DNA from: Candidatus Aenigmatarchaeota archaeon
GTDB lineage: Archaea > Aenigmatarchaeota > Aenigmatarchaeia > QMZP01
Direction of reading: 5' to 3'
DNA: 32,915 bases
NCBI GenBank assembly: GCA_017609225.1
Contig: JAFCEK010000003.1
Span: 1-32,915, forward strand
Each line of letters starts with the position of its first letter. Within the stretch, counting starts at the first letter, position 1. The notes below the pieces were generated by a model. The model was not told the DNA's origin, searched no databases, and saw nothing but the letters and a program-made list of their open reading frames with translations. The translations under genes and the position numbers were made by a program. Of the stretch, positions 1 through 29,807 are shown piece after piece.

Positions 1-44
1 CTCTTAACTGAGCAGGGAAAGAGCTTTCCCACGAAGAACGTATA

Positions 45-105
45 AAACGCCTTAAAGAAGCAGGGATTCCAACAAGGATTGAGAGCAAGAGAGAATAAAT
101 TTTGC
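45..105 (+). repeat. Repeat family A, copy A0 (divergent)
   Basis: AAACGCCTTAAAGAAGCAGGGATTCCAACAAGGATTGAGAGCAAGAGAGAATAAATTTTGC; aligns over its length with A1 at 793. Confidence 0.55.
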
Positions 106-114
106 TCCAAAATA

Positions 115-735
115 CTAAAAAATCATCCAGAGCCATCCAATCTGAAATAATCCTAATTGTGCGAGCCATATAATAAGGTTGTTTGTGGAATGTGCTATCC
201 ATGCGGGGAGTAGGTTTTTCTGGTTTCTTTTATTGGAAGTATAGAAAAAAAGTGCATAAGAACTGCCATTGATAAAGTTGGGTATATTTATTCTCATATG
301 AAAAAGCATAAACAGAACAGATTGGATTAACAGGCCTGAAAGCAGTATTGAGATATAAGTGGGGTGTGACCTTTTCTTATTTTTTGCAAATGTCATGAAA
401 CTTCCAAAAAACATGCCCCGAAAGATCATTTCCTCCATAAGAGGTTGGATTACTACCATCAGTGGAAATATAATAATGGCTGTTGTTAAATCTATTTGAG
501 ATTCTCCAAGAAATGGATAGATTCCGTTCAGAAGGAAGATAACTAAAAAGGGAAAGAGAATTGTCCTGATGGGGTTTCCTAGAAAAATGCTGTATCTGAA
601 AACCCATTTCTTAAGTTTGTTCTGCCTTTTTCTTGGGATTTTTTGCTGATTTTTCTTAGCCCAAAAAAGAAACATTAGGAATAAAATTACAATAATATAT
701 TGAATAGTAAGTTCTAAAAGGTTCATAATCACCAT
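115..735 (-). CDS. CPBP family intramembrane metalloprotease
   Basis: 206 aa multi-TM protein with EExxxR (MEEMIFRG), FHMR and AHSTNN motifs typical of CPBP/Abi proteases. Confidence 0.8.
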   Translation of the reverse strand: MVIMNLLELTIQYIIVILFLMFLFWAKKNQQKIPRKRQNKLKKWVFRYSIFLGNPIRTILFPFLVIFLLNGIYPFLGESQIDLTTAIIIFPLMVVIQPLMEEMIFRGMFFGSFMTFAKNKKRSHPTYISILLSGLLIQSVLFMLFHMRINIPNFINGSSYALFFYTSNKRNQKNLLPAWIAHSTNNLIIWLAQLGLFQIGWLWMIF

Positions 736-792
736 AAAATTAATTATTTATATAAATAAAATAGAGCCAGGTTTTTGTTGTGACCAGCCTCA

Positions 793-853
793 AAACGCCT
801 CCTAAAAGCAAAAATTCCCAAAGGATTGGAGGCAAGAAGGAATAAATTTTATA
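793..853 (+). repeat. Repeat family A, copy A1
   Basis: AAACGCCTCCTAAAAGCAAAAATTCCCAAAGGATTGGAGGCAAGAAGGAATAAATTTTATA; shares AATTCCCAAAGGATTG with A2/A3 and its 3' half with A0. Confidence 0.7.
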
Positions 854-886
854 AACCTAACTGATGTATAATAAAACAATATGTTC

Positions 887-926
887 CCCAGTCTTGCTCC
901 AGGGCTTGTCCCTGGGCGACACTGGG
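887..926. repeat. Nested inverted repeat (hairpin) immediately 3' of the NYN gene; possible transcription terminator or structured RNA
   Basis: CCCAGT-n6-CCAGGG-n5-CCCTGG-n5-ACTGGG; two nested 6 bp stems ending 2 bp from the NYN stop. Confidence 0.55.
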
Positions 927-927
927 T

Positions 928-1520
928 TTATGGTTCTCGTTTATTCTTGGTTTCCCTTAGGCACTCATGAATATAATCATCCAGTCTGATGGATCTGTCA
1001 CAAACCTGCTGAAGGTAATAAGATCCGCTTATTTTGAGATATGCGTTTTCTACTTTCTTTCCCAGCTTTTGGACTTTCCGTATTGCAGGAACGAAATCGC
1101 CATCACCACTTAGAATTATTGCAGTATCATATGCATCTTCATAAGCCATTGAAACAAGGTCTGTAGCCAAATATATGTCATCCCCCTTGACTGTGAATGA
1201 TAGTTTTCCTTTCAAATCCTTTGTTTTTCTCATTCTGCATAAAACCACATGAAAACCTGGTATTTTTCTAAGCTCATCAAAGAATTTCTGTTGCTTGAAA
1301 TAAATTTCTTCATTATATCCCCTATCAAGTGGTGCGTTATAGTAATAAACATCTATCAGCAGCCTTTTGTTTAATAATATGTCTATAATCTTCTGAAATC
1401 TATTTCACTATCCTTGAATCCGAATGTATCTTTTAGACTATGATAAAAATTGCTTCCGTCTATGAATATGACAACTCGTTCCCCAGATTCTGATACTTCA
1501 TCTCTCTTTTTATTGGCCAT
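928..1520 (-). pseudogene. NYN/PIN-like (DUF88) nuclease-like protein, split by one frameshift
   Basis: N-terminal part MANKKRDEVSESGERVVIFIDGSNFYHSLKDTFGFKDSEIDF ends in a stop at ~1390; the adjacent frame continues QKIIDILLNKRLLIDVYYYNAPLDRGYNEEIYFKQQKFFDELRKIPGFHVVLCRMRK...ILSGDGDFVPAIRKVQKLGKKV. VIFIDGSNF and SGDGDF are NYN-type motifs. Confidence 0.75.
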
Positions 1521-1575
1521 TTGAAAAATATTATTTTGTGATTAATAAATTAGTTGATATTCAAACACATGCCTG

Positions 1576-1637
1576 AAATGCATCCAAGAAACAAAAAATT
1601 CCCAAAGGATTGTTTAAGAAGGGATGAAAAGGTTTTA
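1576..1637 (+). repeat. Repeat family A, copy A2
   Basis: ATGCATCCAAGAAACAAAAAATTCCCAAAGGATTGTTTAAGAAGGGATGAAAAGGTTTTA, nearly identical to A4. Confidence 0.85.
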
Positions 1638-1700
1638 CAGTTCCCAGGCCATAAGGCATAAAAGTAATCTTTTTAAAGTAAATGGTTTAATTATTAATTG

Positions 1701-1745
1701 AACAGGGCTTGTGGGGATGTCTACCTGTCCAGGACAGGCCGCCCC
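1701..1745. repeat. Inverted repeat / hairpin
   Basis: CCTGTCC-A-GGACAGG (1724-1738) with flanking GGGG...CCCC; shares CAGGGCTTGT with the 887-926 hairpin. Confidence 0.5.
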
Positions 1746-1911
1746 ATGAGATCATGTTCATTTATGGGTTCATATATCCTTTACCAATTTCTGTATTTCC
1801 TTTAAGGATATTTTTCTTGGTTTAACTACCCCTCTTTTCATACATCCTTTCCGCTGGTATCAATTCCAAAAAGCATATATAATTTTGTTGATTTTACTTA
1901 AATTTGATAAT

Positions 1912-1970
1912 AAACTTCCAAGAAACAAAAAATTCCCAAAGGATTGTTTAGGAGGAGAGAATGAATTCTG
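1912..1970 (+). repeat. Repeat family A, copy A3
   Basis: TTCCAAGAAACAAAAAATTCCCAAAGGATTGTTTAGGAGGAGAGAATGAATTCTG; identical to A2 over CCAAGAAACAAAAAATTCCCAAAGGATTGTTTA. Confidence 0.8.
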
Positions 1971-2006
1971 ATTTCTGCAAATCAATTTATATCAGGCTTT
2001 CTTATA

Positions 2007-2348
2007 TTGTTCATGGTTTTAGAAGATATATATCAGATAAAAAGAAAGCTAAGATCCATAGAAAGAATAAAATTTTCAAAACATGCAGAAAAGAAAATTG
2101 AAACAAGAAAAATAAACAAAGAATTTGTGATTAAAAATCTGAGAGATCCAGAAAAATTAAGAAAATTCTCATCTGAACCTGATAAATATCCTGGTGAAAA
2201 ATATGAGCTTTATTTCTATATCAATAAAAGAAAGAGTCTTAAAGTGGTTGTTAGTTTTTTCTGTAAAGATTTAAATGTAGTAACTTCTCATATAATATTA
2301 AACAAAAGGTTAAAATGGGTGGAAAAATGGCGAAAGAAGCGAAAATAG
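2007..2348 (+). CDS. DUF4258-like / RelE-like putative toxin
   Basis: Basic 113 aa protein with RIKFSKHAEKKIETRKINKEFV and C-terminal VVVSFFCKDLNVVTSHII, characteristic of DUF4258; overlaps the next gene. Start may be ATG 2013. Confidence 0.65.
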   Translation: MFMVLEDIYQIKRKLRSIERIKFSKHAEKKIETRKINKEFVIKNLRDPEKLRKFSSEPDKYPGEKYELYFYINKRKSLKVVVSFFCKDLNVVTSHIILNKRLKWVEKWRKKRK

Positions 2349-2656
2349 ACTATGACAAGGAAAACGATATCCTGTATGTGCATACAGGGCAAAATGTGAG
2401 CGATAGTGTGGATTTCGATAATTTTGTTATTGATTACTCTAGAGAAGGAATGATAGTAGGAGTGGAAATAATGAGAGCTTCTGAATTCATAGAAAAATTC
2501 GGATTATCAAAGGAATTTTTGATTAAGGCGGAAAAGGCTTCTTTAAGTGTTATACAAGGCAGAGAGTATGCATTAATAAAAATAACTGTTTTTGCAGTAG
2601 GAAAAATGAAGGAAATAACTGTTCCTTCACCTGTTCCCCAAATGGTTAAAGTTTAG
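2315..2656 (+). CDS. DUF2283 family putative antitoxin
   Basis: IDYDKENDILYVHTGQ...VSDSVDFDNFVIDYSREGMIVGVEIMRASEF is DUF2283-like; likely start MAKEAK at 2327; overlaps the upstream gene. Confidence 0.75.
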   Translation: MGGKMAKEAKIDYDKENDILYVHTGQNVSDSVDFDNFVIDYSREGMIVGVEIMRASEFIEKFGLSKEFLIKAEKASLSVIQGREYALIKITVFAVGKMKEITVPSPVPQMVKV

Positions 2657-2665
2657 CAACCATCC

Positions 2666-2727
2666 AATGCATCCAAGAAACAAAAAATTCCCAAGGGATT
2701 GTTTAGGAAGGGATGAAAAGGTTTTAT
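2666..2727 (+). repeat. Repeat family A, copy A4
   Basis: ATGCATCCAAGAAACAAAAAATTCCCAAGGGATTGTTTAGGAAGGGATGAAAAGGTTTTA. Confidence 0.85.
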
Positions 2728-2776
2728 TAAAGGGATGTTCTAAAAAGAGAAAGACCTTTTCAGATTTTTGATGATT

Positions 2777-3088
2777 TTAAGGTATAAAAGAAACTCTTTC
2801 ACTTATTACAGAAAAGGAATGAATTTTGAAACATGCAGAGAGGCAATTAAAAAATGCAAAAAATTCATAAGAGAAATTAAAAAGCTGATGGGATTGTAAA
2901 TAAGTAGTAGCACCAAATCCTGTAAAGATAAAAATTATAATAGAAATAAGAAAGCAAACTGTGATTAATATTTTTGTAACCATTATCAGTTTGGGGTTTG
3001 TTAATCTGCTCCAGAGTGTATAAAGATTATAAAAAAGCTTCTCTGAATCTGGTTGTGGATATGGAGGTAACTTTTTCTCTTTCTTCAT
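2777..3088 (-). CDS. Small hypothetical membrane protein
   Basis: 103 aa ORF with one strong hydrophobic segment (TKILITVCFLISIIIFIFTGFGA). Confidence 0.4.
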   Translation of the reverse strand: MKKEKKLPPYPQPDSEKLFYNLYTLWSRLTNPKLIMVTKILITVCFLISIIIFIFTGFGATTYLQSHQLFNFSYEFFAFFNCLSACFKIHSFSVISERVSFIP

Positions 3089-15317: not shown

Positions 15318-15906
15318 ATGGATGCAATAGAATGCATCAAGACTAGAAGGGCTGTAAGGGAATATGCAGGAAAGGAAATATCAAAGGAGATTCTGAAGGA
15401 TATAATTGACTGCGCAAGGCTGGCTCCGTCTGCAAGAAACCAGCAGCCATGGGAGTTTGTGGTTGTTACAGAAAAGGAAATGCTGGAAAGGCTGGGGGAT
15501 ATAACAGAATACGGGGATTTTATCAGGAATGCTGCTGCCTGTGTGATTGTATGCTGCGATGGGAGCGCAAAGTACTACCTGGAGGATGGTTCAGCTGCAA
15601 CCGAAAATATACTACTTGCAGCCAGGGCATATGGCATTGGCTCCTGCTGGATTGCGGGGGACAAGAAGCCGCACTGTAGGAATATAAAAAAGCTTCTGGG
15701 AATTCCTGAAAATATAATGTTGCCTCCTTGCAGCTTGGTTCGGCAACAGCTGTTGAACCAGAACCATACATCCATTGTTTGAAATAATGGTTTTCTGGTT
15801 CAACATAAAGATAGTGAGCATAGTTTCCATGGGCTATCCAAAAGGGAAAGCAATGCCGTACGGGAAAAGGAATCTGGAGGATGTTCTGCACTGGGAAAGG
15901 TTCTAG
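15318..15906 (+). pseudogene. Nitroreductase family protein interrupted by a copy of structured repeat element R
   Basis: N-terminal part MDAIECIKTRRAVREYAGKEISKE...LLGIPENI; after removing 15718-15805 plus one TAA, the frame continues KIVSIVSMGYPKGKAMPYGKRNLEDVLHWERF*. Confidence 0.85.
15718..15805 (+). mobile_element. Structured repeat element R, copy 1 (88 bp), flanked by TAA on both sides
   Basis: TGTTGCC...GGCAACAGCTGTTGAACCAGAACCAT...ATGGTTTTCTGGTTCAACA; two hairpins (GTTGCC/GGCAAC and TGTTGAACCAGAA/TTCTGGTTCAACA). Confidence 0.8.
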
Positions 15907-24082: not shown

Positions 24083-24194
24083 TGTTGCCTCCGTATATCC
24101 GCGACTAAAGTCGGCGGTTTTCTTGGTGAGGCAACAGCTGTTGAACCAGAACCATACATCCACTGTTTGAAAACAATGGTTTTCTGGTTCAGCA
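24083..24194 (+). mobile_element. Structured repeat element R, copy 2 (112 bp), flanked by TAA
   Basis: TGTTGCCTCCGTATATCCGCGACTAAAGTCGGCGGTTTTCTTGGTGAGGCAACAGCTGTTGAACCAGAACCAT...ATGGTTTTCTGGTTCAGCA; abuts the ribL stop, whose TAA is the left flank. Confidence 0.85.
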
Positions 24195-24300
24195 TAAAGA
24201 TCTCAAAGAGCCAAAAAACTACCTGCTTTAGCTGGCAGATGGATGCCCTGTTTGAGAGATTTGATTTTTAAAGAAAAAAAGTCCATACTTAAGTGGTTTT

Positions 24301-27150: not shown

Positions 27151-27263
27151 TGTTGCCTCCGTGTATCCGCCTACTAAAGTCGGCGGTTTTCTTGGCGAGG
27201 CAACAGCTGCTGAACCAGAACCATACATCCGCTGTTTGAAAACAATGGTTTTCTGGTTCAACA
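27151..27263 (+). mobile_element. Structured repeat element R, copy 3 (113 bp), flanked by TAA
   Basis: TGTTGCCTCCGTGTATCCGCCTACTAAAGTCGGCGGTTTTCTTGGCGAGGCAACAGCTGCTGAACCAGAACCAT...ATGGTTTTCTGGTTCAACA; fills the gap between rpoA2 and rpl6. Confidence 0.85.
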
Positions 27264-27275
27264 TAATTAAGCTGC

Positions 27276-29807
27276 TTATTTTCCTGTTTTCTTCTTTGGC
27301 TGCTTCTTTTTTTGTGAGCCTGCTTTTTTTGGCTTTATGCCTGCCTCTGGTATCTTTCCTATAAGCTCAAATGCGCCTGTTCCTATGGGGGCAACCTGGT
27401 TCATCATTATGTTTTCAACTGTTCCCCTCAAGAAATCTGTTTCTCCCTTTATTGCGGCAATCGTGAAGTGTTTTTTTGTTTCCTCGAAGCTTGCTCTCAC
27501 AAGAACAGAGGCCTTCTGGCCTGCGATTCCATATCTTCCTATTGCCTTTATCCTGCCTGTTCTTGTCATGAGGTCTGCAAGAAGCATTATGTACCTTATG
27601 TCAACACCAAGCCCCTGCTCCTCCATTGTGTACTGGGTCTGCCTTATTATTGCATTCCTGGCTGCTTCTATTCCAAGCAGGTCCTGGATTTCAAATATGT
27701 TGTTGCTGTAGGTTCTTGTCTTGTCAACACCATTAATCTCAAATGCCTTTTTGAGGTTTGAGCCCAGTGTGTTTATAACCCATTCATTATCCTCCTTTGT
27801 AACAACAACCTGGGTTATTCCCTTTATTCCTTTTATATATGTTTCAAGAAGGTTGTATTTCAGCTTTCTGAGGTTTTTTATGTCTGATTTTTTCGGAATA
27901 ACAACAAGCTTGTCTTTTTCAAGCTTTACTGATGCTGTTCTCATCTTTATCATTTTTGGAATCCTGTTAACATCAATGTTCAGTGCCCTGATTTTTTCAA
28001 GGTCCAGCCTGCATTCAATAAGAAGCTCTGTCAGGTCCAGGATATCGGAAATTATTATGTCCCTAAGTTTGACCTCTTTTATGTTATTTGCTATCTCTCT
28101 TACCTTTTCCAGGTCCTGGTACTCCTTTTCCAGGTAAATCATCATTGTTGGTGTTCTTGGCTCTTTCCTGGCATCAAAAATCTCAAGCATTCTGGGCAAA
28201 CCCAGAGTTACCTGTATGCCGGCAGTTCCTGCAAAATGGTATGTACGCATTGTGTTATGGGTAACAACGCCTTCAAAAGTGGTGAATGTTTCTGTTCCAC
28301 CAACTGTAAGGTCATACACATATTTGGAGCTTGGCTTTACCTTTTCTATTTTTATTATCTCATCCCATACAACATCAGAATATGCCATCTGCTTCATTAA
28401 GGATATCTCATTTTTAATGTCCACCTTCATACCATTTGCCCTTGATTCAAAAATATTTATGTACCTTAGAAGTGTTTCCCTTCCTATTTTGCCTCTTCTC
28501 GTAAAATTATTTACATATCTTGTGGGATATTTGAGTTTTTTTGCAACATCCATAAGCAGGCTTCCGTATCCGGATATCATATCTGTAAAGTCCTGCCTGG
28601 GCATGGTTCCCATGCTGCACAGCATGTCAAGTTTTTCCTGTTTTTTCTTTACGGAAAATCCTATTTCCTTCCTGAATATTTCTGCATATTTGCAGGGTAT
28701 TATGATTGAGAACTGTTTTCCCTTCTGTTTTGTTGCGAAAATTCCGAATCTGGAGAGAAGAAGCATTACGCCGTTTATAAGCTCCTCGGAATTGGAGGAC
28801 GCTCTTATCATTTTCCTGCCCACTGAAACATTTCCATCCCCGTCAAAATAACCTCTTAATATCCCTGATACAAATTCCCTAGTTGCGCCATATGTGAACT
28901 GCGGTATTCTCTTGTTTTTTGAGCCTGTACCGCATGTTTTCTTGAGGAATTTTGACAGAAGAGATGAGTTTATTCTTATATCATGCCCTCTTGCAAATCC
29001 TCTTGTGTTGTCATATTCATTATATGTAAATCCGTAATGTTCAGCAAATGCTCTTATCTGGGAAAGGAATTCAGGATTTGTATTTGAAATGGACACGAAA
29101 TATCTTGTTGAATTACCCTCAGCTATGTATGCCCCCATAAACCAGCCCAGGAACCTGTCAAGCACCAGAACATCAGGCATTTTTTTCTTTGCATGACATG
29201 TATCTACAAATGATTCGAGTTTCAAAACCTGCGTACAATTATCCCTGATATGCCTGACTACGGGTATCCTCTCTCCTTCTACAAGCTCTGAACCTTTAAC
29301 AGGCACTATTTTGTTATTTTTTCTTACAACAAAGGAATGGGAGTCTGTTGCTGTTATTTTTCTGCCTGAAAGCAGGCTTATCCTTATAAGATGCTCAGGT
29401 GCCCTGTGTCTGCTGCATTCCAGCACCTGCCTCCATTTAATCTTTTCATTGCAGGCAAGGCTTGGAACAAATATCCTGTATGAAGATAAATCGCATACAT
29501 CCCATCCGTTTTCAGTGAATCCTGCCATTTTTATCATTCTGTCAACAAACTTTCCTATTTCTGGTGTTGCTGTAATCCCGTCCTTTTTGAGAATTATTTT
29601 TTCTTTGGAGTCAAGGCTCATCTGCGTGGCTGGCTCGGAAAGTGACTGGGCTGTAACAACCCCTACCGGTTCATAGGGATCGTATATGGATTCCCTGTAA
29701 AGCTTTTTCACTGTATCCACTATTTCTTTCTGTTTCTCAGGGCTGGTTTTGCTTTTGTCAAAATACTCCTTTAATTCATTCTGAATCTTGGGTGGCAGGC
29801 TGTTCAT
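27276..29807 (-). CDS. rpoA2: DNA-directed RNA polymerase subunit A'' with intein
   Basis: Exteins YDPYEPVGVVTAQSLSEPATQM and TMRTYHFAGTAGIQVTLGLPRMLEIFDARK flank an in-frame 455 aa insertion. Confidence 0.96.
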   Translation of the reverse strand: MNSLPPKIQNELKEYFDKSKTSPEKQKEIVDTVKKLYRESIYDPYEPVGVVTAQSLSEPATQMSLDSKEKIILKKDGITATPEIGKFVDRMIKMAGFTENGWDVCDLSSYRIFVPSLACNEKIKWRQVLECSRHRAPEHLIRISLLSGRKITATDSHSFVVRKNNKIVPVKGSELVEGERIPVVRHIRDNCTQVLKLESFVDTCHAKKKMPDVLVLDRFLGWFMGAYIAEGNSTRYFVSISNTNPEFLSQIRAFAEHYGFTYNEYDNTRGFARGHDIRINSSLLSKFLKKTCGTGSKNKRIPQFTYGATREFVSGILRGYFDGDGNVSVGRKMIRASSNSEELINGVMLLLSRFGIFATKQKGKQFSIIIPCKYAEIFRKEIGFSVKKKQEKLDMLCSMGTMPRQDFTDMISGYGSLLMDVAKKLKYPTRYVNNFTRRGKIGRETLLRYINIFESRANGMKVDIKNEISLMKQMAYSDVVWDEIIKIEKVKPSSKYVYDLTVGGTETFTTFEGVVTHNTMRTYHFAGTAGIQVTLGLPRMLEIFDARKEPRTPTMMIYLEKEYQDLEKVREIANNIKEVKLRDIIISDILDLTELLIECRLDLEKIRALNIDVNRIPKMIKMRTASVKLEKDKLVVIPKKSDIKNLRKLKYNLLETYIKGIKGITQVVVTKEDNEWVINTLGSNLKKAFEINGVDKTRTYSNNIFEIQDLLGIEAARNAIIRQTQYTMEEQGLGVDIRYIMLLADLMTRTGRIKAIGRYGIAGQKASVLVRASFEETKKHFTIAAIKGETDFLRGTVENIMMNQVAPIGTGAFELIGKIPEAGIKPKKAGSQKKKQPKKKTGK
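28254..29618 (-). mobile_element. Intein with LAGLIDADG homing endonuclease domain inserted in RpoA2
   Basis: Begins SLDSKEKIILKKDG after TQM, ends FEGVVTHN before TMRTYH; LAGLIDADG-like LGWFMGAYIAEGN and VSGILRGYFDGDG; residues 64-518. Confidence 0.92.

Follow-up and report, generated by a model that had tools for sequence, protein, structure and literature searches.

Introduction

Integrons and CALINs, the latter without an adjacent intI, are among the described systems closest to the locus analysed here. Integrons have been reported from archaeal MAGs, Nanoarchaeota included (PMC9668308). Mobile elements are also known to integrate in tandem at gene 3' ends, with the formation of att direct repeats, the archaeal cases being mostly at tRNA genes (PMC8371274, PMC4158269).

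The locus studied here differs from integrons and CALINs in that its genes lie in both orientations and its repeat seems to stem from the 3' end of a protein-coding gene. With tandem 3'-end integration it shares direct repeats that split the acquired DNA, one of which (A0) reads as the 3' end of a gene. Unlike such integrations, its units measure 0.3-0.8 kb and carry no integrase, no complete element is seen, and the apparent target is a zinc-ribbon gene instead of a tRNA gene. The gene content, both here and at related loci described below, is like that of TA/defence islands (MNT-HEPN, DUF4258/DUF2283, R-M genes), of which, to our knowledge, an ordered repeat between units is not a general feature.

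Organisation of the repeat array

The stretch analysed (the window) is a complete contig of 32,915 bp (G000:C40) from the MAG of an uncultivated small-genome archaeon (880 kb, 79 contigs, estimated completeness 78%), the sole representative of its genus among the genomes searched. The right portion of the contig carries usual archaeal genes, e.g. those for PolB and RNA polymerase A'/A''. Only 44 bp separate the left contig edge from the first repeat; the array may therefore be cut short and continue leftward past the contig end. A reading of the sequence alone (the sequence-only reading) had described five repeats of ~60 bp in one orientation, separating small accessory genes. All five were recovered on the + strand, with starts at 45, 793, 1576, 1912 and 2666, and the proposed spacings of 748, 783, 336 and 754 bp are those measured. 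The features are listed in Table 1.

Table 1. Repeats and genes at the left end of the window.
Feature	Position	Strand	Remarks
Open frame AGKELSHEERIKRLKEAGIPTRIESKRE, then stop	12..98	+	zinc-ribbon C-terminal tail; remainder beyond contig end or lost
Repeat A0	44..103	+	coding
CPBP/Rce1-like membrane protease gene, 206 aa	115..735	-	CPBP/Rce1 E 6.8e-14
Repeat A1	792..852	+	79% to A0; translates to PASKRLLKAKIPKGLEARRNKFYKPN, then stop
NYN-domain (LabA-like) nuclease gene	928..1521	-	NYN E 1.1e-14; frameshift near 1397
Repeat A2	1576..1637	+	
Gene-poor spacer	1640..1911		23-aa minus-strand peptide at most (MKRGVVKPRKISLKEIQKLVKDI)
Repeat A3	1912..1963	+	91% to A2 over 46 columns
DUF4258-like gene, candidate toxin side of TA-like pair	2007..2348	+	22.5 bits, curated cut-off 25
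DUF2283 gene, partner in TA-like pair	2315..2656	+	E 4.9e-11
Repeat A4	2666..2726	+	97% to A2; in frame past TAG stop of DUF2283 gene

The cassette-like layout with accessory or addiction genes is supported, and the CPBP/Rce1, NYN and DUF2283 assignments were matched, whereas the DUF4258 assignment stayed under its curated cut-off. The NYN gene, a piece of which is recognised as LabA-like by PADLOC, is split by a single frameshift, which may indicate a pseudogene or a sequencing error.

A core of the repeat, AAAATTCCCAARGGATTG, occurs four times without mismatch, against an expectation of 0.39 even with up to three mismatches allowed. The identity of A0 and A1 extends over 63 columns and its ends are sharp; A1 is 75% identical to A2 and 72% to A4. 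Pairwise scores were compared with the best of 500 dinucleotide shuffles and exceeded it for A0-A1 (53 versus 30), A1-A2 (43 versus 35), A1-A3 (40 versus 28), A1-A4 (37 versus 27), A2-A3 (70 versus 34) and A2-A4 (112 versus 35). A0 showed no direct similarity to A2 or A4 beyond 500 shuffles and a weak one to A3, equalled by one of the 500. Judged from these alignments, the similarity of the repeats is a chain, from A0 to A1 and then from A1 to A2, A3 and A4. The near-identity proposed for A2 to A4 holds for A2 and A4, over 61 bp, but is lower for A3. The segments between the repeats, compared with each other, retained no residual similarity clearly above shuffles, so the array is not just a repeat and its gene duplicated in tandem.

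Significant copies in the host genome are found solely in window 45-2727. A genome-wide occurrence, named at the outset as an argument against a cassette array, is thus not seen, and a dispersed MITE/REP-like repeat was ruled out on the same ground. Exact-pattern scans returned three single matches in GTDB contigs, all in unrelated bacteria, and two single matches in IMG/VR; plasmid and phage records gave none. While the layout of a cassette array stood, exchange of cassettes was not seen: in 60 relatives the repeat had only chance-level matches at the DNA level, apparently unrelated on reading, and the contig carries no recombinase. Neither an empty site nor a circular unit was observed.

The statement that the repeat does not match attC was upheld, as window 1-3000 contains no R'/R'' boxes (RYYYAAC + GTTRRRY pair). 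Single-strand folding of the repeats, calculated with RNA energy parameters for both strands, gave z-scores of -1.4 to 1.0 relative to shuffles. With attC boxes, a fold beyond shuffles and an integrase on the contig all absent, the locus lacks the features that define integrons.

The first repeat as the tail of a zinc-ribbon gene

A0 had been taken for a plain repeat. Its reading frame matches the C-termini of small zinc-ribbon proteins from relatives at E about 1e-6, and we recognise it here, from this homology, as the coding 3' end (SHEERIKRLKEAGIPTRIESKRE, then stop) of a zinc-ribbon gene family with a patchy distribution. The gene body would lie beyond the contig end or has been lost. An in-frame TGA stands just ahead of the tail, so A0 may or may not be the end of a living gene. 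Of 156 genomes from the phylum, 28 have a member of the family at E <= 1e-4, a count that includes the window's own A0 tail. Among intact members most of the variation falls on third codon positions, as expected under protein-level selection on the tail.

A tail profile for which only seven intact zinc-ribbon genes were used, with the window sequences left out, finds A0 at 41 bits. The same profile fails to detect A1-A4, so that their tie to the tail runs only through the similarity of A0 to A1 and then of A1 to A2, A3 and A4. The relatives carry intact zinc-ribbon genes without repeat copies or a second tail copy nearby, synteny with the window not being established, and no zinc-ribbon protein was found in viral contigs. 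A different cysteine-rich protein (L069 5959-6267, G011:C9) has a similar C-terminal tail (REERVKRFMESGMPLRIEG, then stop).

Solo tails in related genomes

The tail profile also revealed solo tails, in which the gene body is absent, in three relatives of other genera, with scores ranging, A0 included, from 24 to 41 bits. Their neighbours are TA or defence genes. In G016 one solo tail (C89, 40 bits) overlaps an MNT-HEPN pair at its 3' end and, over 58 bp, shares 90% identity with the tail of an intact zinc-ribbon gene on contig C37, the two contigs having no overlap; another (C17, 30 bits) lies just ahead of a further MNT-HEPN pair. The solo tail of G022 (24 bits) lies 15 bp past a Schlafen-g3 helicase and that of G033 (35 bits) adjoins an Mrr-like nuclease. 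The solo tails resemble the array repeats in extent, with 5' boundaries that vary, that of G033 being longer than those of G016 or G022. In G033 and at G016:C89 the neighbouring gene is joined out of frame to the tail DNA. An array of several solo tails was seen in none of the relatives.

The same MNT-HEPN pair is flanked by a tail in two genomes, 5' of the pair in G029 and 3' of it in G016. Across 41 genomes, two of the four copies closest to the G016 HEPN gene are near a tail, in different families and on opposite sides of the gene, for which the probability by chance is about 1e-5 (about 13 tails, about 38.5 Mb), an estimate that uses rounded genome sizes, counts the query among the four copies and comes from a test picked after the case was seen. 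In G029 (C42, L187 316-3926) the genes after the zinc-ribbon gene are, in order, MNT-HEPN, a pair containing DUF2283 and a second MNT-HEPN, and this locus is like the window in the DUF2283 partner type common to both. Intact zinc-ribbon genes also adjoin R-M genes (G001, G017). The zinc-ribbon gene itself may belong to defence loci, in which case the remnants of it found there could simply have decayed. The tail loci, the window among them, lie nearer to contig ends than expected from a uniform distribution (KS p 0.006), a pattern compatible with repeats or with variation between strains.

Recombinases

The host genome encodes three tyrosine recombinases, all on contigs other than the window, and no integrase was found beside an att-like repeat on the window contig. 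The recombinases of the host include a XerA-like one (G000:C27) and one of 179 aa (G000:C43). Tyrosine recombinases occur widely across the order, with no clear co-occurrence with the tail. Two adjoining short genes at L189 3723-4855 (G016:C17) encode tyrosine recombinases, one confirmed and one apparent, about 6 kb from the solo tail. At L063 4273-5554 (G002:C39) a XerA-like recombinase gene is followed directly downstream by an intact zinc-ribbon gene with its tail.

Origin of the array

We tentatively favour, at somewhat less than even probability, an accessory-gene island that grew as insertions recurred at a site descended from the 3' end of the zinc-ribbon gene, because five repeats of one orientation are confined to the locus, A0 has homology to the protein tail and solo tails occur elsewhere. 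The array in the window would be the surviving right-hand part of such a small island. The target would have been one ~60-bp site, the gene's 3' end as present in A0, with every insertion adding a short unit (CPBP, NYN, DUF4258/DUF2283) plus a further, like-oriented copy of the site. Units would join through a single crossover within the site (Campbell-type), and both a trans-acting recombinase and ordinary homologous recombination would fit as its agent. The copy joined to the gene body would be the only one that has to remain coding, so that A0 reads as a conserved protein tail; A1 to A4 would drift or copy one another, which would explain the near-identity of A2 and A4. The main weakness lies in the descent of A1-A4 from the tail via A1, which we infer from chains of pairwise similarity. 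The evidence suggests a gene-collecting site as opposed to a classical integron. A bolder version, which we regard as doubtful, would be a cassette system of small-genome archaea independent of IntI and attC, in which a dedicated recombinase acting in trans inserts TA/defence modules at the ~60-bp zinc-ribbon 3' end. If insertion is the correct reading, these archaea gather addiction and defence genes by a route invisible to standard integron searches, since the site is not an attC and is partly hidden within a coding gene; the tail peptide and the tail DNA would then offer a concrete handle for finding further loci of this kind.

Much of the same evidence is covered by decay plus local copying in a defence/TA island, a serious possibility and only somewhat less likely than insertion. 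Zinc-ribbon genes would lose their 5' parts by illegitimate joins, the 3' remnants would be duplicated or gene-converted, and the genes in between would reflect ordinary turnover. The differing 5' boundaries of the solo tails, the out-of-frame fusions at G033 and G016:C89, which look like illegitimate joins, the frameshifted NYN gene and the R-M neighbours of intact zinc-ribbon genes all speak for decay. It requires, however, several separate events, each leaving about the same ~50-60 bp, all oriented alike, to either side of four unrelated spacers, and neither clear duplicated DNA nor a zinc-ribbon body remains in the inter-repeat segments. The repeats might also be no more than short stretches of homology that let RecA-type recombination exchange accessory genes, without the help of a dedicated recombinase. 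The 61 bp shared by A2 and A4 would provide enough homology and no recombinase lies nearby, yet we consider such a hot spot unlikely, as it accounts neither for the origin of the first copies nor for the coincidence of the block with a gene 3' end in several genera.

Explanations that do not involve the zinc-ribbon tail fare worse. A functional RNA, terminator or regulatory element recurring at each gene would suit the position of the copies, all intergenic or at gene ends, and the AT-rich, promoter-like DNA after several of them. Such an element is very improbable given that no relevant Rfam match appeared at gathering or permissive thresholds, that the fold is no better than shuffles, that the repeat keeps one orientation while genes occupy both strands, and that copies elsewhere in the host genome are lacking. 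Most improbable of all is a true CALIN, an integron cassette array whose attC sites have diverged: the spacing, the single orientation and a similarity that is higher inside a genome than across genomes have their counterpart here, but the missing RYYYAAC..GTTRRRY pair, the lack of a stable fold and the absence of IntI from the contig stand against it.

Other features of the contig

The window contains another repeat family of 94 nt (15716-15809, 24104-24197 and 27173-27266), two copies of which are 96% identical and one 67%, holding an inverted repeat GAACCAGAACCAT...ATGGTTTTCTGGTTC. The RNA polymerase A''-type gene at 27276-29807 has an intein inside, with a LAGLIDADG-type domain.
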